Shown one piece after another: positions 484 to 32,004 of a stretch of DNA of 32,865 nucleotides. How positions within the stretch are numbered: the stretch's first letter is position 1; each line of letters begins with the position of its first letter. The notes below the pieces were generated by a model. That model saw only the letters and a program-made list of their open reading frames with translations, made no database searches and was not told where the DNA came from. The DNA lies in IMG/VR virus record IMGVR_UViG_3300020203_000060, positions 1 to 32,865 of that record; one strand, given 5' to 3'. The DNA is from a virus. Position numbers and translations under genes: made by a program.

Positions 484-1362
484 ATGAAAAATGAAATAAT
501 AGCTATAGATTATAGCTCAAAGGAAACAATAGAAGTTTTGAGGCAAATTCTAGCAGTGGGAGCGACTGATACAGAGCTATCCCTCTTTATAGAAATATGT
601 AAATCAACTGGATTAAATCCCTTCAAGAAGGAAATTTGGTTTATTAAAACTAAGGGGAAAAAATACAAAGACGAAATGGGAAACTGGCAGGAAGGCGCAG
701 CGAGACTGCAAATTATGACAGGGATAAACGGCTTTCTTGCCATTGCTAATAATCATCCTCAATTTGATGGCTTAGAGTGTGACGTATTTTATGCAGCAGA
801 TAAAAAAACGCCGTTGTCAGCGGTTGTTAAGGTACATAGAAAAGATCGTAAATTCCCGAGTGTGGCTACTGCCTTGTGGCACGAATACTATAAGCCCAAC
901 AAATACGGAAACGTTGGAATTTGGGAACAAATACCCAGTATCATGATTGCAAAGTGCGCTAAATCTCTAGCCCTGAGGGAAGCTTTTCCTCAGGAGCTAA
1001 ATGGTTTATACACGCAGGAAGAAATGAGCGCAGAAGATTCGCCGAAGGTTGAGACTGTAAAGCCTGAGCGTGCAAAACTAGAGACTATAAAGCCTTTACC
1101 CTTTGAAGACGATCAGTTGCCAGATTTTGAGCAAGAAAAAGCACAGAAGAAAGCAGGAGAAGAAACACAAGTAGAGACATGGACGGAGCCTAGCGGTGTT
1201 TATTTTCAATATAATTTAGAAACGTATCCTCATAAGACGGCGGAGCATAAAGGAATGTTTTTTAAAAAGTTGACGCAGAAAAAAGGGGTAGAGGTATCTT
1301 TGAATATTTGGGAAGTACCCGAGCTAATCGAAGGTCTTAAACAATATTTAATTAAAGGGTAA
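484..1362 (+). CDS. RecT/Bet-family single-strand annealing recombinase (292 aa)
   Basis: Belongs to the phage RecT/Bet annealing proteins, which bind single-stranded DNA and promote annealing and strand invasion during phage recombination. The family pattern is clear in residues 1-185: a helical start, then SLFIEICKSTGLNPFKKEIW, a reference to testing a small-molecule-like core (RLQIMTGINGFLAIA), and a helix near IMIAKCAKSLALREAFPQ. The remaining ~100 residues are an acidic linker and a separate small domain not usual for the shortest Bet proteins. ATG 484 is chosen because AAAGGAATAAAAAAA precedes it; the upstream start at 394 would overlap the previous gene by 67 bases. A coiled-coil gene and SSB follow, a common recombination trio. 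No paired exonuclease is seen in the window unless the small nuclease at 8247 fills that role. Confidence 0.9.
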   Translation: MKNEIIAIDYSSKETIEVLRQILAVGATDTELSLFIEICKSTGLNPFKKEIWFIKTKGKKYKDEMGNWQEGAARLQIMTGINGFLAIANNHPQFDGLECDVFYAADKKTPLSAVVKVHRKDRKFPSVATALWHEYYKPNKYGNVGIWEQIPSIMIAKCAKSLALREAFPQELNGLYTQEEMSAEDSPKVETVKPERAKLETIKPLPFEDDQLPDFEQEKAQKKAGEETQVETWTEPSGVYFQYNLETYPHKTAEHKGMFFKKLTQKKGVEVSLNIWEVPELIEGLKQYLIKG

Positions 1363-1368
1363 AACAAA

Positions 1369-2025
1369 ATGGAAATAGTAGAATTTAAACCAATTAAAAA
1401 CTGGGATGACGCTAATAAACTTTTAGAATTAGTTTATGAAAAATTTAGCGTTATCCCTCAAGTGGAAATTAAAGACGAGATCGTGAGGTGCGACGTTGGA
1501 AATCTCATGAGAGAGGTTGCACACATGAGCAAGCAGCTTGACGTAGTTTCAAAGCAGTTGAAACAGCCAGCAAAGGATTATGTAGAGCAAATAGATTTTA
1601 AAATAAATCCTTGCCTTGACTCTTTAGAGATTGCTAAAGAGGCTTATAAAACAAGCGTTATAGCGTGGGATAATAAAAAAATGGAGTTGCTCAGAGTCGC
1701 AGAAATTGAGAGGGTAGCCAAAGAAAAAGAAAGACTCTTGGAAGAGCAAATACTTGCGGAGATGGAGGGGAAAAAAGCTGAGGTAAGACACATAGAAAGA
1801 GTGTCCGAGGCATTAGAAGTTAAGGAGATTAAAAACATAATCAAAGAAGAGGCGGCAGGTGTGACTATAAGAAAGATTAAGAAATTTAGAATAGTTGACG
1901 AGAAATTAATCCCAAAAGATTATTTATTAGTCAATGAGACTAAAATAAGAAAAGCAATGCACGCTAATTTAGCAGTTGAAGGCGTTGAGTATTATGATGA
2001 ACAAACGACTAGCGTAAGAATTTAA
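1369..2025 (+). CDS. coiled-coil recombination-module protein, DUF1351-like (218 aa)
   Basis: Starts six bases after the RecT-like stop. The middle (about residues 55-160) is charged and helical, likely a long coiled coil. The C-terminus (about 170-218) has a compact pattern with IPKDYLLVNETKIRKAM, a Val-rich turn and a final aromatic/Arg strand. This resembles the DUF1351-like proteins found beside recT and ssb in many temperate phages, whose exact role is not settled. A part in recombination is inferred from neighbours. No catalytic motif is seen. Confidence 0.65.
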   Translation: MEIVEFKPIKNWDDANKLLELVYEKFSVIPQVEIKDEIVRCDVGNLMREVAHMSKQLDVVSKQLKQPAKDYVEQIDFKINPCLDSLEIAKEAYKTSVIAWDNKKMELLRVAEIERVAKEKERLLEEQILAEMEGKKAEVRHIERVSEALEVKEIKNIIKEEAAGVTIRKIKKFRIVDEKLIPKDYLLVNETKIRKAMHANLAVEGVEYYDEQTTSVRI

Positions 2026-2049: not shown

Positions 2050-2487
2050 ATGAGCTATCAAAAATTAATTATAGTTGGATCGCTAGGTGCAGAGCCAGTG
2101 AGTAAAGTAACGCCGCAGGGCAAGGCAGTTAGTCAATTTAACGTAGCAGTCAATGATACGAAGGACTTAGTTACTTGGTTTAAAGTTGTGGCGTTTGAAG
2201 GACAAGCTGAAAACTGTAACAAGTTTCTTCATAAAGGATCTAAGGTGCTAGTAGAGGGGCGGTTAAAGTTTGACAAATACACCGACAAAAATGGCGTAGA
2301 AAAAACTGGTCATAGCGTAGTAGCCTCGCAGGTTAAATTTTTATCAAGTAAATCAGAGAGTCAAGCTGAGCCGTTTTCTCAAGTGCCAAGCAGTGATGAG
2401 ATAAAGCAGCAGAATTTTGGAGAGCTTAAACTTAAAGATGCAGGTAAGGCTGAGCTATCGTTTGAAGACTTCGAGATCCCCTTTTAA
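2050..2487 (+). CDS. ssb: single-stranded DNA-binding protein (145 aa)
   Basis: An OB-fold SSB of the bacterial type. Residues 1-100 carry the family landmarks: LIIVGSLGAEPVSKVTPQGK, the FNVAV strand, TWFKVVAFEGQAENCNKFLH, and GSKVLVEGRLKFDKYTDKNG. A flexible linker follows, and the protein ends in DFEIPF, matching the acidic DDDIPF-type tail by which SSB recruits partner proteins. It would coat single-stranded DNA for replication and for the RecT-like annealing protein two genes upstream. AAAGGAATAAAAAAA precedes the start, almost the same leader as that of the RecT-like gene. Confidence 0.93.
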   Translation: MSYQKLIIVGSLGAEPVSKVTPQGKAVSQFNVAVNDTKDLVTWFKVVAFEGQAENCNKFLHKGSKVLVEGRLKFDKYTDKNGVEKTGHSVVASQVKFLSSKSESQAEPFSQVPSSDEIKQQNFGELKLKDAGKAELSFEDFEIPF

Positions 2488-2775: not shown

Positions 2776-2997
2776 ATGAAATCAAAATCAGCGTTAGTTC
2801 TAGAGTGGTGTAAGGAAAATCGAATAGTAAATTTAATCACTTTTTACGAGGGTGCGTTGTCACACTACGATGATGTATACGGAACAACAGACGAATGTGC
2901 GGACACTATAATAGGTGGCTTTGATGCCGAACAGAATTATCACAAATTGCCAGAGAATATTTTTAAAGAGAAAGTTAGCAATAGGAAGAAGAAATAA
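2776..2997 (+). CDS. family A small protein, copy 1 (73 aa)
   Basis: First of three tandem paralogues. Shared core: (L/I)xEWCKxNxIVxLITFYEG, then HYxDVYGTTDE, VIGGFD and KLPxxIFKxKV. The start at 2776 (AAAAGGAAATATT before ATG) makes it align from the first residue with the other copies; the longer frame from 2752 overlaps the previous gene. Across the LITFYEG to YGTT stretch its DNA differs from copy 3 at only about six of 64 positions, closer than to its neighbour copy 2. Function unknown. The fold is probably a small alpha/beta domain. Confidence 0.75.
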   Translation: MKSKSALVLEWCKENRIVNLITFYEGALSHYDDVYGTTDECADTIIGGFDAEQNYHKLPENIFKEKVSNRKKK

Positions 2998-2998
2998 A

Positions 2999-3361
2999 AT
3001 GAAATCAATTGGCGAGTTACTCTTTCAGGTGCTTCCAAGCGGTGAGTACCCAACAGCGATTAATAGGTGTAGATGGTCTGAGGATATAAAGAAAGCTATC
3101 TTCCCATCACAGGAAATTAAAGGAAATAATATTATGAAAACAAAAACAGAGCTAGTTATAGAATGGTGTAAAAAAAATAAAATAGTAGATTTAATCACGT
3201 GCTATATGGGTGGAATATATCACTACAAGTACACAGACGGAACAACAGATGAGGATGCAAAGCTCGTCATAGGCGGCTTTGATGATAAAAGGAATTATTA
3301 CAAACTGCCAGCCGATATTTTTAAAGTAAAAGTTAGTAAGAAGAAAAAGGAAATAAAATGA
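2999..3361 (+). CDS. family A small protein, copy 2, with extra N-terminal stretch (120 aa, or 75 aa)
   Basis: Two starts are plausible. ATG 2999 (AGGAAGAAGAAATAAA before it) gives 120 residues, beginning MKSIGELLFQVLPSGEYP. ATG 3134 (AAAGGAAATAATATT before it) gives a 75-residue protein that aligns from its first residue with copies 1 and 3. The extra 45 residues resemble nothing else here and may be what remains of a small gene whose stop was lost. The core differs from the other copies (CYMGGIYHYKYTDGTTDEDA). Its stop overlaps the next start as ATGA. Confidence 0.7.
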   Translation: MKSIGELLFQVLPSGEYPTAINRCRWSEDIKKAIFPSQEIKGNNIMKTKTELVIEWCKKNKIVDLITCYMGGIYHYKYTDGTTDEDAKLVIGGFDDKRNYYKLPADIFKVKVSKKKKEIK

Positions 3362-3729
3362 AAACAAGAAAAGAATTATTGCGAGAGTGGTGGAACGATA
3401 GGGGAATAGTACGTTTAATCACTTTTTATGAGGGGACGTGGTCACACTACGCTGATGTATACGGAACAACAGAAGAAGATGCGAAACATGTCATCGGTGG
3501 CTTTAATGACAAACAGACTTATTATAAGTTGCCTGATAATATTTTTAAAGTAAAAGTTACGAAGAGTCAAGAAGCTTACGTATCTGATTATGCCCTTACT
3601 AGACTTAAATCAGAGAAGAGGTGTCAGGGAATTTTCGCCACATTACATGAAAACTCTTTTTATCCCTATGTAGAGTCTGAAGTCAACAAAGTTACAATTA
3701 CCTGGGAAGAATTGGAAGAAATAAAATGA
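3358..3729 (+). CDS. family A small protein, copy 3, with C-terminal extension (123 aa)
   Basis: Residues 1-70 are the family A core (EWWNDRGIVRLITFYEG, HYADVYGTTEEDA, VIGGFND, KLPDNIFKVKV). About 50 more residues follow, with a Ser/Tyr-rich patch and an acidic end (ITWEELEEIK), not present in copies 1 and 2. It overlaps both neighbours by ATGA, so translation is probably coupled. DNA similarity to copy 1 suggests recent duplication or gene conversion. Function unknown. Confidence 0.75.
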   Translation: MKTRKELLREWWNDRGIVRLITFYEGTWSHYADVYGTTEEDAKHVIGGFNDKQTYYKLPDNIFKVKVTKSQEAYVSDYALTRLKSEKRCQGIFATLHENSFYPYVESEVNKVTITWEELEEIK

Positions 3730-4010
3730 AAAGAAAATTTTACGGATTCCAAAGTAAGAATTATATAGACTTATCTTTTGTCGCCTACATCGGAGCAGGG
3801 AGTAAAACGGTGGAAGTCCGAGACAAGAACATGTCTGTCCTGTGGCGTACAGAATTTGACACAATAGATGAGGGTGATGCTTATGCACAGAATTTAATTA
3901 GACTCATAGAAGACACGACAGAAGATAAGAGCCTTGTGGAGGAGGTGAAATTTCTTACTTTTATGGTTGTAACGATCGGAATGTTGATATTTTATACTAA
4001 TTTATTATAA
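3726..4010 (+). CDS. family B small protein, copy 1, with C-terminal membrane anchor (94 aa)
   Basis: Residues 1-65 are the family B core: MKRKFYGFxxxxYIDLSxVAYI, a central strand pair, LWRTEF, then a helix DAYAQNLIRLIED. Unlike copies 2 and 3, it continues into a hydrophobic segment (about residues 75-94, FLTFMVVTIGMLIFYTNLL) that looks like a C-terminal membrane anchor. That tail resembles the anchors of both family C proteins downstream, which also end in TNL(I/L). It overlaps the previous gene by ATGA. Function unknown. Confidence 0.72.
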   Translation: MKRKFYGFQSKNYIDLSFVAYIGAGSKTVEVRDKNMSVLWRTEFDTIDEGDAYAQNLIRLIEDTTEDKSLVEEVKFLTFMVVTIGMLIFYTNLL

Positions 4011-4019
4011 GGAGAGTTT

Positions 4020-4232
4020 ATGAAAAGAAAATTTCACCAGTTTGACACCAATTTTTATATAGACTTGTCTGCGGTTATACATATCAAGGTAGCTATTTAT
4101 AACAAAGATTATCATGAGGTAGTTGTCCGAGGCATAGACCGTCAAAAACTTTGGGAAGCGCGATTTACTACGGCAGAAGATGCTCATGCTTACGCAAAAG
4201 ATTTAATTAAATTAATGGAGGAAATAGAATGA
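4020..4232 (+). CDS. family B small protein, copy 2 (70 aa)
   Basis: Starts behind a strong AAGGAGAG site. It has the same layout as its neighbours: MKRKFHQFDTNFYIDLSAVI, a beta pair around YHEVVVRGIDRQ, LWEARFTT, and the helix DAHAYAKDLIKLMEE. It ends without the membrane tail of copy 1. Likely a small cytoplasmic beta-beta-alpha protein. It resembles the broad class of short phage proteins of unknown role. Its stop overlaps the copy 3 start by ATGA. Confidence 0.75.
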   Translation: MKRKFHQFDTNFYIDLSAVIHIKVAIYNKDYHEVVVRGIDRQKLWEARFTTAEDAHAYAKDLIKLMEEIE

Positions 4233-4438
4233 AAAGAAATTTTTACGATTATGCGGATTGCGAATATATAGACTTATCTTTGGTTGCTTATGTCAAAGTG
4301 AAGAAATACCCACCTGATATTTTTGAGGTATGTACTCAAAATAGAGATCGTGAAGAGCTTTGGTATGAAAGGTTTAAAACACGAGAAGACGCCGCAGCCT
4401 ACGCAAATAGGTTAGTAGCCTTAATGGAGGAACGATAG
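4229..4438 (+). CDS. family B small protein, copy 3 (69 aa)
   Basis: Third family B paralogue: MKRNFYDYADCEYIDLSLVA, a beta pair around IFEVCTQNRDRE, LWYERFKT, helix DAAAYANRLVALMEE. GGAGG stands ten bases before the start, inside the end of copy 2. The conserved LW-(x)-(x)-RF and DAxAYAxxL residues define the family; the middle loop varies most, as expected if the copies have taken on different targets. Function unknown. Confidence 0.75.
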   Translation: MKRNFYDYADCEYIDLSLVAYVKVKKYPPDIFEVCTQNRDREELWYERFKTREDAAAYANRLVALMEER

Positions 4439-4439
4439 A

Positions 4440-4778
4440 ATGAAAGCTAAAACCAAAAGACTTACACTTAAAGACCTCAATGCGAGCTTGCGATCTCTAG
4501 GAGATGAGGTGTATCGGAATGAGAAAGCACAGAGCGACAGAGCCGCAGAGATGCGAGGAAATCACGTAAAACTACTTAGGGAAGTTGAGAAATGGAAGCG
4601 TGATCTGTTGGGTGATGTAAAGAATGAGAAATGGTTTAACGAGCAGAGAAACGAAGCCGAAATAGAAATCAAGAACAAATTGACTAATCACATTCTTGAA
4701 AATAGAAGACTTAAGAATCTTTTCTATTATGGATCTTTACTGATTGTTTTGTTGCTGATTATCACTAATTTAATTTAA
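4440..4778 (+). CDS. family C tail-anchored coiled-coil protein, copy 1 (112 aa)
   Basis: Starts one base after the previous stop. N-terminus MKAKTKRLTLKDLNASLRSL, then a charged helical stretch (about residues 25-90), then a hydrophobic segment near residues 92-112 (YYGSLLIVLLLIITNLI) that ends the protein. This is a C-terminally anchored membrane protein with a cytoplasmic coiled coil. Such a layout resembles XhlA-type or superinfection-exclusion proteins, but no family is recognised. Its first ~13 and last ~20 residues closely match copy 2; the middle has diverged. Confidence 0.75.
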   Translation: MKAKTKRLTLKDLNASLRSLGDEVYRNEKAQSDRAAEMRGNHVKLLREVEKWKRDLLGDVKNEKWFNEQRNEAEIEIKNKLTNHILENRRLKNLFYYGSLLIVLLLIITNLI

Positions 4779-4787
4779 AGGAAATTT

Positions 4788-5111
4788 ATGAAAGCTAAAA
4801 CCAAAAGACTTACAATTAAAGACCTCAAAGAATTAATAGACGAGTTGTCACAAAGAGGGTATAGGAACGAAGAAGCGGCACGCGAAAGAATAACGGAAGA
4901 CGCACGCAGGGCTGAAAACCTAAGGGCAGAATTACTACGATGGAAATACGAAATGCAAGAAGCGTTAGCAAAAACGAGACTTGAGCTTACTATGGAAAGA
5001 CTTGCAGATACTAGAACGAGTAGGGAGGGCTTGGTGCAGAAACTTAAGAATCTTTTCTGTTACGGATTTTTGCTCATTGTTTTAATACAAATTGTTACTA
5101 ATTTAATATAG
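4788..5111 (+). CDS. family C tail-anchored coiled-coil protein, copy 2 (107 aa)
   Basis: AAAGGAAATTT precedes the start. N-terminus MKAKTKRLTIKDLKELIDEL is nearly identical to copy 1, and so is the C-terminal anchor (LKNLFCYGFLLIVL...VTNLI). Between them lies a strongly charged helix rich in Arg and Glu (about residues 25-85) with little direct similarity to copy 1. Conserved ends with a diverged middle suggest that membrane position is fixed and partner choice varies. Function unknown. Confidence 0.75.
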   Translation: MKAKTKRLTIKDLKELIDELSQRGYRNEEAARERITEDARRAENLRAELLRWKYEMQEALAKTRLELTMERLADTRTSREGLVQKLKNLFCYGFLLIVLIQIVTNLI

Positions 5112-5119
5112 GGGGATTC

Positions 5120-5443
5120 ATGAAAATAACTTTAGGCTTCCTTAAAGCGTGCAAGGCTTGCGATGGGTTTATCAAGTGGTTTAAAAAACAAAAGTCAAAA
5201 GAATTGGTCGACTTAATGAACACGCTGATAAAAGAAAGGCGGCACTACTGGGCTTGCAGGCTAATGAGGGAGTCCTTCAGCATGGAGCAAACTAAGCGGT
5301 ACCTCGAATATGAATATAAAGTCCGCAAGTCTCTTAGGTACGCCGATTATATTACTCGCGAGGCAGCGATGCCTGGCTACTTGCAGTATGGATTAAGTTT
5401 AATTAAAGAGGGGGAGTATGAAAGTAACACTAAAATTTCTTAA
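5120..5443 (+). CDS. family D helical small protein, copy 1 (107 aa)
   Basis: Starts behind AGGGGGATTC. It is all-helical, with the pattern MKITLGFLKACKACDGFIKWF, LVDLMNTLIKER, HYWACRLM and LEYEYKVRKSL. This recalls a widespread phage/prophage domain with a GACxxxxxWF start and a WAxWLI helix, usually of unknown function; the match is from memory and is not close. It ends YGLSLIKEGEYES, a tail shared in part with copy 2 and with the 40-residue gene at 5928. The next start lies inside its last 26 bases. Confidence 0.72.
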   Translation: MKITLGFLKACKACDGFIKWFKKQKSKELVDLMNTLIKERRHYWACRLMRESFSMEQTKRYLEYEYKVRKSLRYADYITREAAMPGYLQYGLSLIKEGEYESNTKIS

Positions 5444-5720
5444 AGAAAGAGGGGCTTGCGACGAGGGTGTAGATTGGCTTAGAAAACGAAAGACGAGAGA
5501 TTTAGTAGAGGTATTAAAATTGCTAATTAAACAAAATAGACTCGGCTGGGCTGAATGGTTGATCCAGAAGTTTTTTAAGTTTGAAGAGATCCAGCAGTAC
5601 CGAGAGTTCGAATACGAAGTTAATATAGCCCTCAAGTCTGCCAATTGCTCTACGCAGCGTGCAGCCAGGGCTTTGGTACTACTCTACGGAATAGATTTAA
5701 TTAAAAGAAGTGATTCATGA
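5418..5720 (+). CDS. family D helical small protein, copy 2 (100 aa)
   Basis: The start lies inside copy 1, behind AGAGGGGGAGT, so the site doubles as coding sequence. Pattern: MKVTLKFLKERGACDEGVDWLRKRKTRDLVEVLKLLIKQ (read in two parts), WAEWLIQKFF, YREFEYEVNIALKSA, and end YGIDLIKRSDS. It fits the GAC...W...WAxWLI phage domain better than copy 1. Predicted soluble and helical. Function unknown. Confidence 0.74.
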   Translation: MKVTLKFLKERGACDEGVDWLRKRKTRDLVEVLKLLIKQNRLGWAEWLIQKFFKFEEIQQYREFEYEVNIALKSANCSTQRAARALVLLYGIDLIKRSDS

Positions 5721-5941
5721 AACCGAAAATACACTATCAATTAGTTAGCAAAGACGGCTTAACCTCAGATCCTAAGCCCTTAAAACAAGTAGTCCCTTAT
5801 ATCACGCAGGCTTTTTGTCGGATGAAAAACGAAAAAATAGAGATACAACCATTTCCAGATATGGGAACGCCCTTCACGTATGAGAACAGGTTTTATAAAC
5901 TTAAAGAAATAATGGAGGTTTACATTTATGAAGAAGAATAA
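5717..5941 (+). CDS. family E small protein, copy 1 (74 aa)
   Basis: Overlaps the previous stop by four bases. It begins MKPKIHYQLVSKDGL and ends YKLKEIMEVYIYEEE, and both ends recur in the second copy at 6050. The middle is variable. The alternating pattern suggests a small beta-rich fold. No family is recognised. A ribosome site for the next small gene lies inside its last codons. Confidence 0.7.
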   Translation: MKPKIHYQLVSKDGLTSDPKPLKQVVPYITQAFCRMKNEKIEIQPFPDMGTPFTYENRFYKLKEIMEVYIYEEE

Positions 5942-6050
5942 CGAGGAAATAAAAGAATTAGTAAAGGAAGTACGGAGGATAGGCAAGCTACTCTATTTGC
6001 AATTCTTGGTTATGCAATACGGAATAGAGTTGTTTAAAGAGGGGAAATGA
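5928..6050 (+). CDS. 40-residue small protein
   Basis: A short frame between the two family E copies. It starts behind a strong GGAGG nine bases upstream of the ATG, overlaps the end of the previous gene by 14 bases and shares one base with the next start (TGATG). The N-terminal half is charged (KKNNEEIKELVKEVRR) and the C-terminus, LVMQYGIELFKEGK, resembles the tails of both family D proteins (QYGLSLIKEG, LYGIDLIKRS). It may be a real small protein or a shortened family D relative kept for coupling. Confidence 0.55.
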   Translation: MKKNNEEIKELVKEVRRIGKLLYLQFLVMQYGIELFKEGK

Positions 6051-6277
6051 TGAAACGAACAGTACAGTATCAATTATTAAGTAAAGACGGTTTAAAATCC
6101 GAGTTTAGAGCAATGGAGACAGAGGGAGGCATTAGAGATTGCATAACAACAAGCGTAGCAAAAGATTTAGCTTACAGTGCAGAGCCTTATACGGTGGGAG
6201 AGCTTACTAATTACGAAACTAGAAGCTATCAACTTTCAGAGGTTAGAGAGATTTTTATTTACAAGGAGGTATTATGA
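6050..6277 (+). CDS. family E small protein, copy 2 (75 aa)
   Basis: Paralogue of the gene at 5717: it begins MKRTVQYQLLSKDGL and ends YQLSEVREIFIYKEVL. ATG 6050 is preferred over the adjacent ATG 6047, because the GAGGGG site is only two bases from 6047 and because 6050 aligns with copy 1. Its 3' end contains AAGGAGG for the next gene and overlaps it by ATGA. Function unknown. Confidence 0.72.
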   Translation: MKRTVQYQLLSKDGLKSEFRAMETEGGIRDCITTSVAKDLAYSAEPYTVGELTNYETRSYQLSEVREIFIYKEVL

Positions 6278-6462
6278 GCGAAGAAAAACCAGCTAAGACA
6301 GCAGAAGAAATATTAGCTTATCTTAAGGAAGAAATTGACAACGTATGCCACGACTTTGACGATAAACACGAGTTTTTTAAGGGCTACTCGACAGGGATAA
6401 CGGACACCTTAGAAGACGTTAAGACGTTTGTTTTGGGGGGTTATGACGGAAAAACCAGTTAG
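6274..6462 (+). CDS. family F small protein, copy 1 (62 aa)
   Basis: Carries the family F layout in its simplest form: EEKPAKTAEEILAYLKEEI at the N-terminus, then FFKGYSTGITDTLEDVKTFV and LGGYDG at the end. The K-T-A-E-E-I start is found at the front of many short phage proteins, with unknown meaning. AAGGAGG lies seven bases before the start. Probably two helices, soluble. Its end overlaps the start of the broken copy 2 by 20 bases. Confidence 0.72.
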   Translation: MSEEKPAKTAEEILAYLKEEIDNVCHDFDDKHEFFKGYSTGITDTLEDVKTFVLGGYDGKTS

Positions 6463-6640
6463 AACAATATAAGAAGTTTCGGAAGAGTTAATAAAAGCAA
6501 CTGGAAGGCTGTTAGAAGATTCTTACGTAATCTCCGAGCCAAGAAGAATGAGACAGTTTTCAGCAATTCATGCAGAGATTGTGCTAGAAACACTAATGAG
6601 GGTTAGGAAGTTTATTTTAAAAGAAGAAGAGGAAATATGA
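6443..6640 (+). pseudogene. family F copy 2, interrupted by one stop codon
   Basis: A full family F frame from ATG 6443 to TGA 6638-6640 is intact except for TAA at 6470-6472. The frame reads TEKPVRTI-stop-EVSEELIKATG, and the double-length copy at 6975 has KPVKTIEEVLEYL at this place, so one GAA to TAA change explains the defect. The rest stays open for 55 codons, ends VRKFILKEEEEI, and keeps the ATGA overlap with the next gene. TAA is a normal stop elsewhere in this genome, so recoding is unlikely. A recent mutation or a sequence error fits. Confidence 0.75.
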
Positions 6641-6978
6641 ACAAAAAGAAATCAGTTAAAAATATTGAGGACGCATTAGCTTGTGTTACCGAAGAAGTTG
6701 ATGTCGTGGAGTACAGGAAGAGCCTATTGTCCGCACTAAAGAAAGTTGGGAAGTTTATTTTAAGCAAAGAGGGATCTTATTTTAAGGATTATAAAAATAA
6801 ACCAGTTAAAACAGCCGAGGAAATATTAGAATATATTAGAAAAGAAATTGCTAGGAACAATAAAGAAATAAGCACCGATCGTTTTAGCCAAGGCGACTTT
6901 TTTATGGCTTATAGTAAGGGCATTGAGGACGCATTAAGATATTCCAAGAATTTTATTTTAGGAGAAGGCGAATCATGA
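6637..6978 (+). CDS. family F double-length protein, copy 3 (113 aa)
   Basis: Looks like two family F units in one frame. Residues 1-46 (KKKSVKNIEDALACVTEEV ... KVGKFILSKEG) form one shortened unit. Residues 55-113 (KPVKTAEEILEYIRKEI, DFFMAYSKGIEDAL, KNFILGEGES) form a complete unit. This suggests in-frame joining of neighbouring copies. It overlaps both neighbours by ATGA. Function unknown; the doubling could make a built-in dimer. Confidence 0.72.
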   Translation: MNKKKSVKNIEDALACVTEEVDVVEYRKSLLSALKKVGKFILSKEGSYFKDYKNKPVKTAEEILEYIRKEIARNNKEISTDRFSQGDFFMAYSKGIEDALRYSKNFILGEGES

Positions 6979-7358
6979 AAGAAAATAAACCAGTTAAGAC
7001 AGCAGAGGAAACTGAAAAAAAATTAGATGAGCTATTCCTTGAGTTGCGAGAGATTAATAATGTTTTTGCAGCAGCAAGGAAGGATCTAAAACCGCTAGGA
7101 GAGGAATACAGCGAGAGGTTGATAAGAACGCAAGAAATATGCGAAGAAATAACAGAGCTAAAGAAGCCGCTAGTCGAATACTTAAAAAAACCAGTTAAAA
7201 CCATAGAAGAAGTATTGGAATATTTAGACAAAGAAATGGAGGCGGTGATAAGGGGAAAGGTCAAGCGTCCAAGTAGCGACAACGAAACGCACACCGATGG
7301 CGAGCTTATGGCTTTGGAATTTGTCAGAGAATTTATTTTAGGACAAGGCGAGGAATGA
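6975..7358 (+). CDS. family F double-length protein, copy 4 (127 aa)
   Basis: Contains two KPVKT starts, ENKPVKTAEETEKKLDELF near residue 3 and KKPVKTIEEVLEYLDKEM near residue 71, so it is another joined pair. The first unit has lost the FILG ending and become a charged coiled coil (about residues 10-65); the second is complete and ends FVREFILGQGEE. It starts behind AGGAGAAGG and overlaps neighbours by ATGA. Function unknown. Confidence 0.72.
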   Translation: MKENKPVKTAEETEKKLDELFLELREINNVFAAARKDLKPLGEEYSERLIRTQEICEEITELKKPLVEYLKKPVKTIEEVLEYLDKEMEAVIRGKVKRPSSDNETHTDGELMALEFVREFILGQGEE

Positions 7359-7591
7359 AAAAAACACTATTAAAACTACTTAACAAACTAGGACTCTACA
7401 CATCGGCGCAATTGAAGAAGCTACGCGATCAGAATTATTCGGCCTTAAAGCTTATAATTGATCAAGCTTTTACGATGAGGGCTCAAGCTTCTACCATACG
7501 AACGCAAAAGGAGCAGATAGAAACCTTAAAAGAAGATCTAGACAGAGAAGAACGAATGCAGCGAGAACAAGAAGAAATGGACGGAATGTAA
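7355..7591 (+). CDS. small coiled-coil protein (78 aa)
   Basis: Overlaps the previous gene by ATGA, with AGGCGAGGA before the start. The N-terminus is basic (MKKTLLKLLNKLGLYTSAQL), followed by a continuous charged helix rich in Gln, Glu and Arg to the end. No membrane segment. The pattern suggests a small oligomeric coiled-coil adaptor. No family recognised. Confidence 0.65.
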   Translation: MKKTLLKLLNKLGLYTSAQLKKLRDQNYSALKLIIDQAFTMRAQASTIRTQKEQIETLKEDLDREERMQREQEEMDGM

Positions 7592-7593
7592 AA

Positions 7594-7833
7594 ATGAAAA
7601 ACTCACAGAAAACGATTAATAAACTTTGGGATCAGGTAAAAGAAAGCTACTCACAGGAAGGATCCGATCTAAAGAAAGATAAAGCATTGTTTATACAAGG
7701 AGTAGACTTTGGCATAGCGCACTGCTTAAGCACACTAGATCTTAAAAGATTTATCTTAGCAGCAAGCAATCCCGGAGTTTCTGCACAATTAACCGCAGCG
7801 TTGGTGCTGCTTAAAGAGGAATTAGAAAAATGA
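7594..7833 (+). CDS. hypothetical helical protein (79 aa)
   Basis: Starts two bases after the previous stop. It appears all-helical, with a central FIQGVDFGIAHCLSTLDLKR stretch and an Ala/Leu-rich helix near the end. The FxxGxxxGIxxxL spacing faintly recalls the second half of family F (GYSTGITDTL), but the start differs and no firm relation is claimed. It overlaps the next gene by ATGA. Confidence 0.65.
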   Translation: MKNSQKTINKLWDQVKESYSQEGSDLKKDKALFIQGVDFGIAHCLSTLDLKRFILAASNPGVSAQLTAALVLLKEELEK

Positions 7834-8156
7834 GTCAATTAATATTAGACCTATACCCAGTTAGCCCGGGATTTAAAAGAGAAGGTACCTCCGAGCTATC
7901 AGCAAAGCAATCCTCTTGTAATTCTAGAAAGCTTCAAGCTCTAGTTTTACATCAACTAGAAAGAAGCGATTTAACAGCGGATGAGTGCGCCTTTAGACTC
8001 GGAGAAGATAAGTTGTCAATCAGACCAAGATTTTCAGAGCTGCAAGCAATGGATCTTATAGTAGAAACGGATTTAAGACGAAAAAACGAATCAGGGAAAT
8101 CAGCAATAGTATGGAAAATAAAACGCGCCGCTGTGAATATTGTGGTGACAGAGTAA
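7830..8156 (+). CDS. winged-helix DNA-binding-like protein (108 aa)
   Basis: Residues 38-98 fit a winged-helix pattern common in short phage proteins: LVLHQLERSDLTADECAFRL (first helices), SIRPRFSELQAMDLIVE (recognition helix), and a wing ending SGKSAIVWKI. The first 35 residues are a Ser-rich leader. Such proteins are often annotated as helix-turn-helix regulators or replication-linked proteins; which applies here cannot be told. It lies near the end of the early block, just before a possible zinc-finger frame and a nuclease. Confidence 0.72.
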   Translation: MSQLILDLYPVSPGFKREGTSELSAKQSSCNSRKLQALVLHQLERSDLTADECAFRLGEDKLSIRPRFSELQAMDLIVETDLRRKNESGKSAIVWKIKRAAVNIVVTE

Positions 8157-8353
8157 ACAGTGAGAAAAAGAAGCTAGGCTCAGATAGAATCTTCACATGT
8201 CAGAAGGCTTTATGTTTAAATAACTATATAGAGGAAAAATCTATATATGAGCATAAACCGATACAACCCCCAGACCGACAAAGCCCAAAAAGACATAGTT
8301 TTAGCATTAAGGAAGCTCGGATATTCGGTGGAAATAATAAAACTACCGCTTGA
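8111..8353 (+). CDS. possible zinc-finger small protein (80 aa), overlaps both neighbours
   Basis: C8, C11, C30 and C35 are spaced like a small zinc ribbon (RRCEYCGDR ... TCQKALC). The frame overlaps the previous gene by 46 bases and the next by 107, and its ribosome site is weak, so support rests on the cysteine pattern and on filling the otherwise empty 8157-8246. The C-terminal part lies wholly over the nuclease frame and is low in recognisable structure. It may be translated by coupling, or be chance. Confidence 0.45.
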   Translation: MENKTRRCEYCGDRVNSEKKKLGSDRIFTCQKALCLNNYIEEKSIYEHKPIQPPDRQSPKRHSFSIKEARIFGGNNKTTA

Positions 8354-8537
8354 TTTATTAATCGGCAAAAATGGAATTAACGTTTTAATAGAAATTAAGA
8401 ATCCAAAAGCTGTAGGTCAAACTGCTGGGAAGTTGAGCGAGAAGCAAGAGAAGTTTTTTCAAACTTGGCAAGGTCAGTGCGCTGTGGCTTCAAGCATTGA
8501 GGAAGTGCTGATAAATTTAAAAGCCCTAGGGGTTTAG
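8247..8537 (+). CDS. VRR-NUC-type PD-(D/E)XK nuclease (96 aa)
   Basis: A compact phage VRR-NUC domain. D36 in LPLDLLIG and E49-x-K51 in VLIEIKNP form the PD-(D/E)XK metal-binding and catalytic set, and the C-terminal helix with LSEKQEKFFQTW and the AVASSIEEVL ending match the family. Stand-alone VRR-NUC proteins act on branched or flapped DNA and are common in phage replication/recombination modules. Here it may serve the RecT-like system, which lacks a visible exonuclease. It starts behind GAGGAAAAA and ends with its TAG directly against the last late gene on the other strand. Confidence 0.85.
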   Translation: MSINRYNPQTDKAQKDIVLALRKLGYSVEIIKLPLDLLIGKNGINVLIEIKNPKAVGQTAGKLSEKQEKFFQTWQGQCAVASSIEEVLINLKALGV

Positions 8538-8750
8538 TTACTTAACCGTAAGGCGTTTATTCTGAGAGAAAAGACGCCGCAAAATAATCAATACACCGCC
8601 CACACTAGAAACTATAGCTGCCACTTGTGGGGTTAATATTGGCGTCACTTGCTCAACTAAATTGGGTAATTCTGCTACAATCAATGGGATGAAAGTTAGA
8701 AGAGAGCTCCAAATTGTAACACTTTGCACTACTGGTTTTGTTGTTGTCAT
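8538..8750 (-). CDS. holin-like small membrane protein (70 aa)
   Basis: Last gene of the left-reading block. It shows a short polar N-terminus (TTTKPVVQSVTIWSSLL), two hydrophobic helices (about residues 13-30 and 42-58) separated by a Glu/Pro/Gln turn, and a basic tail (RRLFSQNKRLTVK). This layout is typical of the two-helix phage lysis-associated membrane proteins that start with a T-x-W motif. It is likely a holin or holin-like protein making lesions in the inner membrane, but sequence alone cannot prove it. No strong ribosome site is seen. Confidence 0.65.
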   Translation of the reverse strand: MTTTKPVVQSVTIWSSLLTFIPLIVAELPNLVEQVTPILTPQVAAIVSSVGGVLIILRRLFSQNKRLTVK

Positions 8751-8792: not shown

Positions 8793-9362
8793 CTATTTTG
8801 TACCCCTTCGAGGAAGGTCGTTATAAAGCTCTACTAGCGTATTTATAGCCGCATTGTAGCTAACACCCGAAAACTTAACTAAAACGTCTCTAGCGTAATC
8901 CTCGAACGTCTGAGCGACTATTAAAGAGCACTTGCGAATTTCTTCATTGCTCGAATTATCCATCAAAAACCTGCGCTTGGAATAATAACGAATTGAAAAC
9001 TCTTCTACCAAAGTACTATTAAAACACTGCAAGTCATGAGGTCTAAGTCTGTCCTGTATCTGCAAAAATCTTCTCCCCTGTCCTCTATTAGTAAACTCAT
9101 GCTCTAAAATAATTGGGTGATACTCAACTATCGTGTCCTTAATTCTAAAATCTGCCGTTGACTTATTTAACAACGGCACTTGAAATGTTTCCCCAGCCAC
9201 ACATTGCCAGTTAGGAATTAATCTTTCATTGGCTAGCGCACAAGCTGCCTCAGAATACGATGCAAATTGAATTTTTTTTTCTGCAAAACTAGGGAAAAGG
9301 GAAGTCTCAAGAAGCGTTTTTTCATATAATCCATTTCTTAGAGAAACTTCAATCTTTGCCAT
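8793..9362 (-). CDS. hypothetical protein, possible nuclease-like fold (189 aa)
   Basis: Not firmly recognised. Residues ~60-95 contain DFRIKDTIVEYHPIILEHEF, where an acidic residue followed by a beta strand and VEYHP resembles the core of PD-(D/E)XK nucleases; a matching lysine was not found, so catalysis is uncertain. A basic helical part (RRFLQIQDRLRPHD, YYSKRRFLMD) follows. It starts directly after the stop of the upstream gene (TAATATG). It sits among lysis and tail genes, which does not settle its role. Confidence 0.6.
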   Translation of the reverse strand: MAKIEVSLRNGLYEKTLLETSLFPSFAEKKIQFASYSEAACALANERLIPNWQCVAGETFQVPLLNKSTADFRIKDTIVEYHPIILEHEFTNRGQGRRFLQIQDRLRPHDLQCFNSTLVEEFSIRYYSKRRFLMDNSSNEEIRKCSLIVAQTFEDYARDVLVKFSGVSYNAAINTLVELYNDLPRRGTK

Positions 9363-30355: not shown

Positions 30356-30688
30356 CTATTTGGATTCTTGAATTGATATTTTTATCCCTTCCGCCGCTGT
30401 TAAAGCTACCTCCGTTTTCTCTCGCCACTGTAGACGTGTTTTACAAAGAAATATAATCATTGCTATGTTCCCCCTGCTTGCTGCTCCAAACGCCCAACCT
30501 GCAACCTTAGCGTTCGCCGTTGCTATCCCTCTTTTCAATTCTGTTGGGAAATATTTTTGTATTGTACATTCTCCGCATTCCATAATTGTGGCTATTTGGT
30601 CGGCTGGCAAGCCTACGCCTGCAAGTGATTCTACTTTTCGTTTGTCTTCTGGCGTGGCTTTTGAGTATTTATGTGGTTTGGGTGCCAT
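30356..30688 (-). CDS. terminase small subunit-like protein (110 aa)
   Basis: Helix-turn-helix at residues ~17-50: KRKVESLAGVGLPADQIATI, then the recognition part with CTIQKYFPTELKRG. The second half (ANAKVAGWAFGAASRGNIAM, FLCKTRLQWREKTE) matches the common small-terminase pattern in which a DNA-recognition head is followed by an oligomerising helix pair. It would choose the packaging start and pass DNA to the large subunit. It overlaps the upstream gene by 20 bases with GAGG ahead of the start. Confidence 0.85.
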   Translation of the reverse strand: MAPKPHKYSKATPEDKRKVESLAGVGLPADQIATIMECGECTIQKYFPTELKRGIATANAKVAGWAFGAASRGNIAMIIFLCKTRLQWREKTEVALTAAEGIKISIQESK

Positions 30689-31430
30689 TGAATACCTCGC
30701 CGTTGATTTGTTGGAGCGTATCGGTCGGTATTGCGCCGCCTTTTCCAGCCTGGGGAGGCTGCTGTTTTACTTTTAAACTAGATACGCATTTTTTACCCAA
30801 GTACATTTTTGCTCCCCTGCGCTCTATTTCTGAATATGGCAGAATCGGAACGGTTAAATCTTTCTGTTTCTCAGGATCTAGAAAGTAGATGTATTTAATT
30901 TGAAAGCCTTCAATTGGCTCGCTTTTTATTATTGAACTTAAATATCTTCCGTTGATCCTTTTATCATCTAGCGACCTTTTCACTACGATCCGACCATTTT
31001 CTAATCGCCTTATACTCGTATTCTTTTTTATGGCGATTAAGTAAAACCCTACTGCTCTATAAATTGTGCCATCCCCACACTGACAACAATCGGCAAAAGT
31101 CTGAATCCACTTAACATGCGGATACTTCTTTTTAATCATCCTTAGTGCAATCGCTAGGCATCTACTTTCTGCATTTTTCGGTAAACTAGGAGCGAAGGCC
31201 ATGCGGTTAAGCTCTAGCATTCCGCCCCATTCCGTATTTTTGACTATTCCGATCGCTTTATTCTTGTCCATCGGGCTGCCAAAGGACATAGCCCCCATGA
31301 GTGCTTTGCCCTTAAATACTCCAAAGTGTAGGTTGCTGTTCATCACCACCTTGCCCGAATAGTGATAGCGTTTGACTATAGCGTTCGCGGACTTGGCATC
31401 AATTAAATTAATTATTAAATCTTTAACCAT
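30669..31430 (-). CDS. Mom-like DNA modification protein, GNAT-type (253 aa)
   Basis: Resembles phage Mu Mom and its relatives, which modify adenines in phage DNA (methylcarbamoyl group) and so protect it from host restriction. Recognisable parts: LHFGVFKGKALMGAMSFGSP near residue 35, LELNRMAFAPSLPKNAESR near 73, and a core with WIQTFADCCQCGDGTIYRA near 108. The last ~50 residues include the GKGGAIPTDTLQ tail also seen in other phage proteins of this kind. No Com-like activator is visible. A ParB-like gene overlaps its start by eight bases and the small terminase start lies inside its end, so it is expressed with the packaging genes. Confidence 0.72.
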   Translation of the reverse strand: MVKDLIINLIDAKSANAIVKRYHYSGKVVMNSNLHFGVFKGKALMGAMSFGSPMDKNKAIGIVKNTEWGGMLELNRMAFAPSLPKNAESRCLAIALRMIKKKYPHVKWIQTFADCCQCGDGTIYRAVGFYLIAIKKNTSIRRLENGRIVVKRSLDDKRINGRYLSSIIKSEPIEGFQIKYIYFLDPEKQKDLTVPILPYSEIERRGAKMYLGKKCVSSLKVKQQPPQAGKGGAIPTDTLQQINGEVFNGTQTT

Positions 31431-32004
31431 TTTGGGTTATCCACGTTGAGCAGATGGCCGCAAGTGCCGCTGCGTTCTTATTCCCTTCTGTGTCTGCTAT
31501 TTTTGATGCGCTTAGAATTGCCCTATCCACTTCCTCAGCCTGTTCTTTTGTCAAACAAAATCTTCTTGTGTAATCGCTTTCACGATTTTCTCCGCCTATA
31601 TCTACGTCATCCAAGATGGTAGGCTGAACTATTAGTTGATCAAGACCCCAAGGCTCAAGCTCAAACCCATTATCCTCAAGAAACCCAAGCTCTAAATCTA
31701 AATTATCAAATTGCCAGGTTGAATCATTTTGTAATTTATTATCTAAAATTCTATATGCTTTTTTTTGCACTTCCGTTAGCCCTGTGATTTTGTACGAGGG
31801 TACTTTGTCTAGATTTAAAGACTTGGCTGCATATAGACGACCATGACCGACTAGCACTATATTATTTTCGTCAATTACAATAGGCTGATTGAATCCGAAC
31901 TCCCTTATAGAGGATGCGATTCTAGAGATCTGCTCTTCACTGTGTTTTCTGTTGTTAAATTCGTACGCATTAATTAGATGCGTTTCTGTTTCAATAATAT
32001 CCAT
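31423..32004 (-). CDS. ParB/Srx-like domain protein (193 aa)
   Basis: Residues ~10-110 form a ParB N-terminal-like domain: FNNRKHSEEQISRIASSIRE, NQPIVIDENNIVLVGHGRLY, with the GHGRL box at 53-57, then LNLDKVPSYKITGLTE. Phage proteins of this kind are often adjacent to, or fused with, DNA methyltransferases or Mom-like genes and may bind DNA or nucleotide. No methyltransferase domain follows here. The C-terminal 80 residues are helical. A link with the Mom-like protein is inferred from overlap and order. Confidence 0.8.
   Translation of the reverse strand: MDIIETETHLINAYEFNNRKHSEEQISRIASSIREFGFNQPIVIDENNIVLVGHGRLYAAKSLNLDKVPSYKITGLTEVQKKAYRILDNKLQNDSTWQFDNLDLELGFLEDNGFELEPWGLDQLIVQPTILDDVDIGGENRESDYTRRFCLTKEQAEEVDRAILSASKIADTEGNKNAAALAAICSTWITQNG

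Follow-up and report, generated by a model that had tools for sequence, protein, structure and literature searches.

Why should a phage keep, side by side, diverged versions of each of six unrelated kinds of small gene, how did they come to be neighbours, and what might the collection be for? The question is posed by the left end of the stretch of DNA analysed here (the window), a 32.9-kb metagenomic contig that is the whole of IMG/VR virus record IMGVR_UViG_3300020203_000060 (32,865 nucleotides).

The island and its surroundings

Terminase, portal, capsid and tail genes are all on the minus strand of the window, and its left end is a plus-strand block in which recT, an exonuclease-like gene and ssb (Table 1) are followed by small genes as far as a VRR-NUC-like gene, 8247-8537. 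Between these recombination genes and the VRR-NUC-like gene lies the island, 2776-7358: small accessory genes arranged like an operon, downstream of the RecT/Bet-type gene and transcribed the same way. A preliminary description, made from the letters alone, had filled the space between ssb and 7358 with six tandemly amplified small-gene families (A to F) joined by ATGA overlaps or short gaps; alignment Z-scores and BLASTP bear out the coordinates and the paralogy, and the overlaps and short gaps are where it saw them. Promoter and terminator scans of the sequence gave results at or below chance.

Some neighbouring sequences deserve mention in their own right. The stretch 2999-3133, in frame from the ATG at 2999 (MKSIGELLFQVLPSGEYPTAINRCRW...), has an A-like start region and may be a further A remnant or belong to a longer A2. 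A distant F member may lie two places past F3, where the gene at 7594-7833 weakly resembles F1 (Z 5.5, with 16/50 identities).

Table 1. Features of the plus-strand block at the left end of the window
Feature	Position	Strand	Evidence or remark
RecT/Bet-type single-strand annealing protein	484..1362	+	PF03837 E=1.4e-30, phrog_2780 E=1e-40
Exonuclease-like gene, weak match to phage 'exonuclease' PHROG	1369..2025	+	phrog_10477 E=2.9e-10
ssb, single-strand DNA-binding protein	2050..2487	+	phrog_44 E=2.9e-31
A1	2776..2997	+	A2/A3 paralogue, 55-60% identity
A2	3134..3361	+	A paralogue; ATGA overlap with A3
A3, 48-aa C-terminal extension	3358..3729	+	A paralogue; ATGA overlap with B1
B1, C-terminal hydrophobic segment	3726..4010	+	B paralogue; hydropathy 2.02 at residue 74
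B2	4020..4232	+	B paralogue
B3	4229..4438	+	B paralogue
C1, charged middle, C-terminal membrane-anchor-like tail	4440..4778	+	C paralogue; hydropathy 2.18
C2, orthologue of C in L007	4788..5111	+	C paralogue
GGGATTCATGAAAATAAC junction at D1 start	5113..5130	+	exact at three consecutive gene starts in L007
D1, orthologue of Db in L007 (89-93% identity)	5120..5443	+	D paralogue
D2	5418..5720	+	D paralogue; six-helix model, mean pLDDT 93
E1	5717..5941	+	E paralogue
40-aa ORF, D-type tail LVMQYGIELFKEG at its end	5928..6050	+	Z 8.6 versus Da of L007
E2, orthologue of E in L007 (70%)	6050..6277	+	E paralogue
F1	6274..6462	+	F paralogue
F-like copy with in-frame TAA, between F1 and F2	6441..6636	+	51-nt repeat with F2/F3; translation; Z 5.0 to F3, stop omitted
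F2, two F-type starts (6644, 6794)	6637..6978	+	repeat analysis
F3, two F-type KPVKT starts (near 6972 and 7183)	6975..7358	+	repeat analysis

Six families of diverged neighbours

There are three copies of A, three of B, two of C, two of D plus a remnant, two of E, and three of F plus a broken copy. Within families, local alignments score far from shuffled sequence (Z 33-48 for A, 19-30 for B, 23 for C, 32 for D, 18 for E and 8-19 for F), and outside them no gene pair comes near this range of 8-48. Amino-acid identity is 55-60% in A, 36-49% in B, 42% in C, 40% in D, 37% in E and 33-48% in F. How exceptional is this? By all-against-all BLASTP, neighbouring same-strand paralogue pairs hold 14/16 island ORFs, or 26% of all ORFs in the window. 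The same procedure gives 5.2% for T4, 3.3% for RHph_I3_18 and 0 for Mx8, PMBT14, BUCT555, 45A6, phiKX1 and Xp15, so that the island lies far beyond the usual range of these eight control phages (0-5.2%), and none of 200,000 random orders of 15 genes reached the observed adjacency. Each of the six unrelated families arose through tandem duplication.

The preliminary description had also held that the ends of the proteins are conserved and their middles vary. Quarter-by-quarter identity shows this for B, C, E and F. D fits at its N-terminus alone, no quarter but the first standing out, and A goes the other way with a conserved core. At the level of codons, identical residues in island copies use the same codon in 0.75 of cases near gene 5' ends versus 0.50 in the middle, from which gene conversion might have been read. 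That reading was dropped: terS, parB, the 8793-9362 gene and three virion genes compared with their relatives have the same pattern (0.76 versus 0.46), and a signal shared with ordinary genes cannot speak for gene conversion in these copies.

Decay is visible beside duplication. A 97-nt repeat (5673-5769 and 6006-6102) covers a D tail and an E start and, together with the D-type tail of the ORF at 5928-6050, points to duplication of a D-E unit with most of the third D since lost; that ORF is probably, to judge from these letters, the remnant of the third D gene. The two F-type starts in each of F2 and F3 indicate that F has multiplied inside genes too. The unit of duplication is thus one gene, or a pair such as D-E, and junction repeats of 97 nt and 41 nt are present within the window. 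In most within-family pairs synonymous sites are near saturation, so the copies are old and no fresh amplification is in evidence.

A sibling array, contracted and re-joined

A scan with D found a sibling, IMGVR_UViG_3300020180_000098 (28.4 kb; L007 below), through a match 93% identical to D1, and the comparison rests on this one contig, whose end falls within the array. It keeps the family order of the window, A/B-C-D-D-E-F, with about half the copies. First comes what seems to be a fusion, the last part of an A gene running into an ending of B type (YHKLPKDFFKEEL...LIALMEKQ; Z 9.9 for the A match and 3.7 for the weak B match); C, Da, Db, E preceded by an E1-type start stub, and F follow, with unrelated genes after them. 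The preliminary description had suggested comparing copy number in related phages, and it does differ, L007 having fewer C, E and F copies; the order of copies differs also. C2, D1 and E2 have clear orthologues in L007, so the duplication is older than the split of the two arrays.

Individual genes of L007 have ends of different affinity. Da has a D2-like start (23/24) and a Db-like end (24/24), while the first 24 nt of F match F1 (23/24) and its last 24 nt match F2 (24/24). The 18-nt sequence GGGATTCATGAAAATAAC recurs exactly at C|Da, Da|Db and Db|E, where 0.03 occurrences were expected. The re-joined ends and exact junctions are the imprint of repeated recombination where genes meet, and a contracted, re-joined array with one junction sequence at three gene starts suggests that the array expands, contracts and re-assorts by recombination. 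As a separate observation, the L007 gene after F (1546-1710) has an F-type beginning, ATGAGCGAAGA, and continues as an unrelated hydrophobic protein, like a cassette joined at the start codon.

The two phages also have in common terS, a ParB-like domain and the 8793-9362 gene, and their virion genes differ. Conversely, G003 is a genome whose capsid and neck genes are related to those of the window (30-56% identity), and it has neither the island nor neighbouring paralogues. An island common to the first pair and absent from the third travels with accessory genes, not with the virion.

Two features of the shared accessory genes may be noted in passing. The protein of 8793-9362 (minus strand; 189 aa) is 92% identical in L007 despite the different virion genes, and had no match in Pfam or PHROG. 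In the window the gene with the ParB-like domain is followed by a Mom-like DNA modification gene (30669-31430 and 31423-32004, both minus strand; phrog_1384, E=3.5e-46), and in the same place in L007 one ORF, 3858-4982, joins the ParB-like domain to an apparent DNA methyltransferase: one site, two different DNA-modification genes.

Selection on the copies

Between the window and L007, dN/dS is 0.51 for C2 (0.72 in its middle), 0.42 for E2, 0.55 for F1 (interval 0.00-1.27) and 0.09 for D1, with 0.14 for terS, 0.21 for ParB and 0.06 for the 8793-9362 gene. C, E and F evolve faster than the shared core genes. In no pair examined did dN/dS exceed 1, and positive selection was found in none. For the conflict with variable host targets that had been proposed for the island these ratios cut both ways: C, E and F are faster than core genes, but none is above 1, and the strong constraint on D1 makes D a poor fit to a simple arms race. 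Synonymous divergence from L007, taken as point estimates, is 0.40-0.47 for C2, D1 and E2 versus 0.71-1.01 for terS, parB and the 8793-9362 gene, a difference which hints that the island has been exchanged more recently than the core genes the two phages share.

The D family and its relatives

Is D multiplied elsewhere? An otherwise unrelated 62.9-kb viral contig (L008) has at 5273-8587 a tandem set of four longer, Ala-rich D-type proteins, and since these are tandem in a second, unrelated phage the D family has multiplied more than once. D relatives are single in a further viral contig (L016) and in Komagataeibacter phage phiKX1. L008 has in addition a second tandem pair, at 4017-4692, of genes of no recognised kind.

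Among known proteins, those nearest to D are of PHROG 38757 and Imm5_like (PF21805). With the tandem proteins of L008 and the single one of L016, the D proteins of the window share an N-terminal region (MKxTLxFLK...W...WA) and a YGxxLI tail; they are without the long Ala-rich part and without a PF21805 match. By the test used for Imm5_like, in which the score of the whole protein has to exceed 25 bits, the curated cut-off, L008:7409-7939 passes (38.9 bits), L008:7949-8584 scores 23.6, and D1 and D2 have no match at E<=1. To PHROG 38757, L008:7409-7939 matches at 3.6e-26 and D2 over positions 7-78 of 170 (E=1.1e-4), and D1 has no match.

Searches for function

The preliminary description had recognised no function in A to F, and profile searches in Pfam, PHROGs, NCBIfam and PADLOC agree, giving no convincing match. 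The island proteins scanned have no Pfam match above cut-off and no recognised immunity domains; no family matches known defence or anti-defence proteins (PADLOC and profile searches), the sole PADLOC match being that of F3 to JetA, of coiled-coil type (15.4 bits, E=0.0014 over 46 residues). No island gene was recognised as a homing endonuclease. Hydropathy places hydrophobic tails at the C-terminal end of C1, C2 and B1.

Structure was no more forthcoming. Profiles of A, B, D and E found nothing significant among the sequences of solved structures. The D model, a high-confidence one, consists of six helices, and that of A has pLDDT 74; Foldseek found nothing in PDB or BFVD at E below 0.001 for the D model, nor anything in PDB for the A model. 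Likeness of D to clamp-loader collar helices was considered and set aside, the best VIA-align Z of 6.5 being within the range common for helical proteins; no claim is made here to a fold, whether familiar or novel. In scans of viral contigs A and B had no match, C and D led to L007, and D also to L008 and L016; tblastn against phage records gave nothing for A3, E2 and F2 and one chance-level match for B3. No host emerged when genomes were scanned with the D alignment and the 8793-9362 gene.

Likeness to known amplification systems

The nearest known process is segmental amplification of anti-defence genes in T4 and T6. Under toxIN, recombination between short repeats lets T4 amplify the one segment dmd-tifA to varying copy number, and the copies are recent, identical and laboratory-selected (PMC9391042). 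The island resembles it as a set of small early accessory genes whose tandem copies come via recombination and vary in number, and its units are likewise bordered by short repeats, of 18 nt in L007 and of 97 nt and 41 nt in the window. It differs in having six families of old copies diverged to 33-60% identity instead of one near-identical segment. In T4 and T6, SegB drives amplification of anti-defence loci, and the accordion-like expansion and collapse needs homologous recombination (PMC13096335); similar expansion and collapse are suggested here, with a RecT-type protein and SSB upstream, in a putative role, instead of a homing endonuclease. Polyimmunity loci of bacterial polymorphic toxin systems, read as an inhibitor store, likewise have tandem paralogous small proteins from several unrelated families (PMC3482391), but carry recognised immunity domains where the window proteins have none. 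What was observed is real and unusual, a diverged six-family array, whereas in known cases one segment has been amplified recently. By analogy, the T4/T6 and polyimmunity cases make a host-directed reading plausible here without establishing it.

How the array may have arisen, and what it may do

Our preferred explanation, with a probability of about 0.5 taken whole, is a recombining array that encodes host-directed proteins. Its evolutionary part is very probably correct: tandem duplication, divergence, decay, and re-joining by recombination at gene starts and ends, with varying copy number. Single genes or pairs such as D-E duplicated in tandem, and their copies diverged, decayed and were re-joined at gene starts and ends; short junction repeats would serve as substrates for expansion and contraction, perhaps through the RecT-type annealing protein that the phage itself encodes. 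Keeping several diverged copies could provide both dosage and a spread of specificities. Of the earlier interpretation, tandem amplification stands, copy number does differ in L007, and the conflict role is still inferential. That the proteins are host-directed, for takeover or counter-defence, we infer with a little less than even odds, from an island present in two phages with different virion genes and absent from one with a related virion, from the faster change of C, E and F than of shared core genes, and from the resemblance of the locus to loci amplified under defence pressure (PMC9391042, PMC13096335). A bolder version is doubtful: a long-lived 'accordion' in which six host-directed families, held as diverged tandem copies and re-assorted at their junctions between the phages of one host, would be a store of variants with no need of fresh amplification.

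Could the array instead be what recombination leaves behind? Repeated junctions in a recombination-prone early region would gain and lose copies, and diverged copies would drift under relaxed constraint with little selection for diversity. Junction repeats are indeed present, broken copies persist (the F-like 6441-6636 and the D remnant 5928-6050) and dN/dS is below 1 throughout. Yet almost every copy retains its open frame and start signals and has dN < dS although synonymous sites are close to saturation; such copies are kept though genome length costs packaging, and D1 is strongly conserved between phages. We consider this account unlikely. Less likely again is specialisation without conflict, the paralogues of a family being subunits of one complex (C1 and C2, for example, as paired tail-anchored coiled-coil-like proteins). 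Genes that overlap or lie close together would suit co-translation, four families have conserved ends, and C has a charged middle and a hydrophobic tail, but the fewer C, E and F copies of L007 are hard to fit with fixed subunit roles. Misassembly, for which only the metagenomic origin of the contig speaks, is rejected as extremely improbable because the copies are strongly diverged, 40-65% of their amino acids being different and synonymous sites being near saturation, and the independent contig L007 has the same families in the same order.

Returning to a recombining array of host-directed proteins, what would it mean? Laboratory phages amplify one anti-defence gene transiently, and a natural six-family locus would show the long-term residue of such amplification, with families A to F as a compact candidate set for host-interaction screens. 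Even should the proteins turn out not to be host-directed, the island still shows with unusual clarity how genes are born and decay in tandem within a small phage genome.
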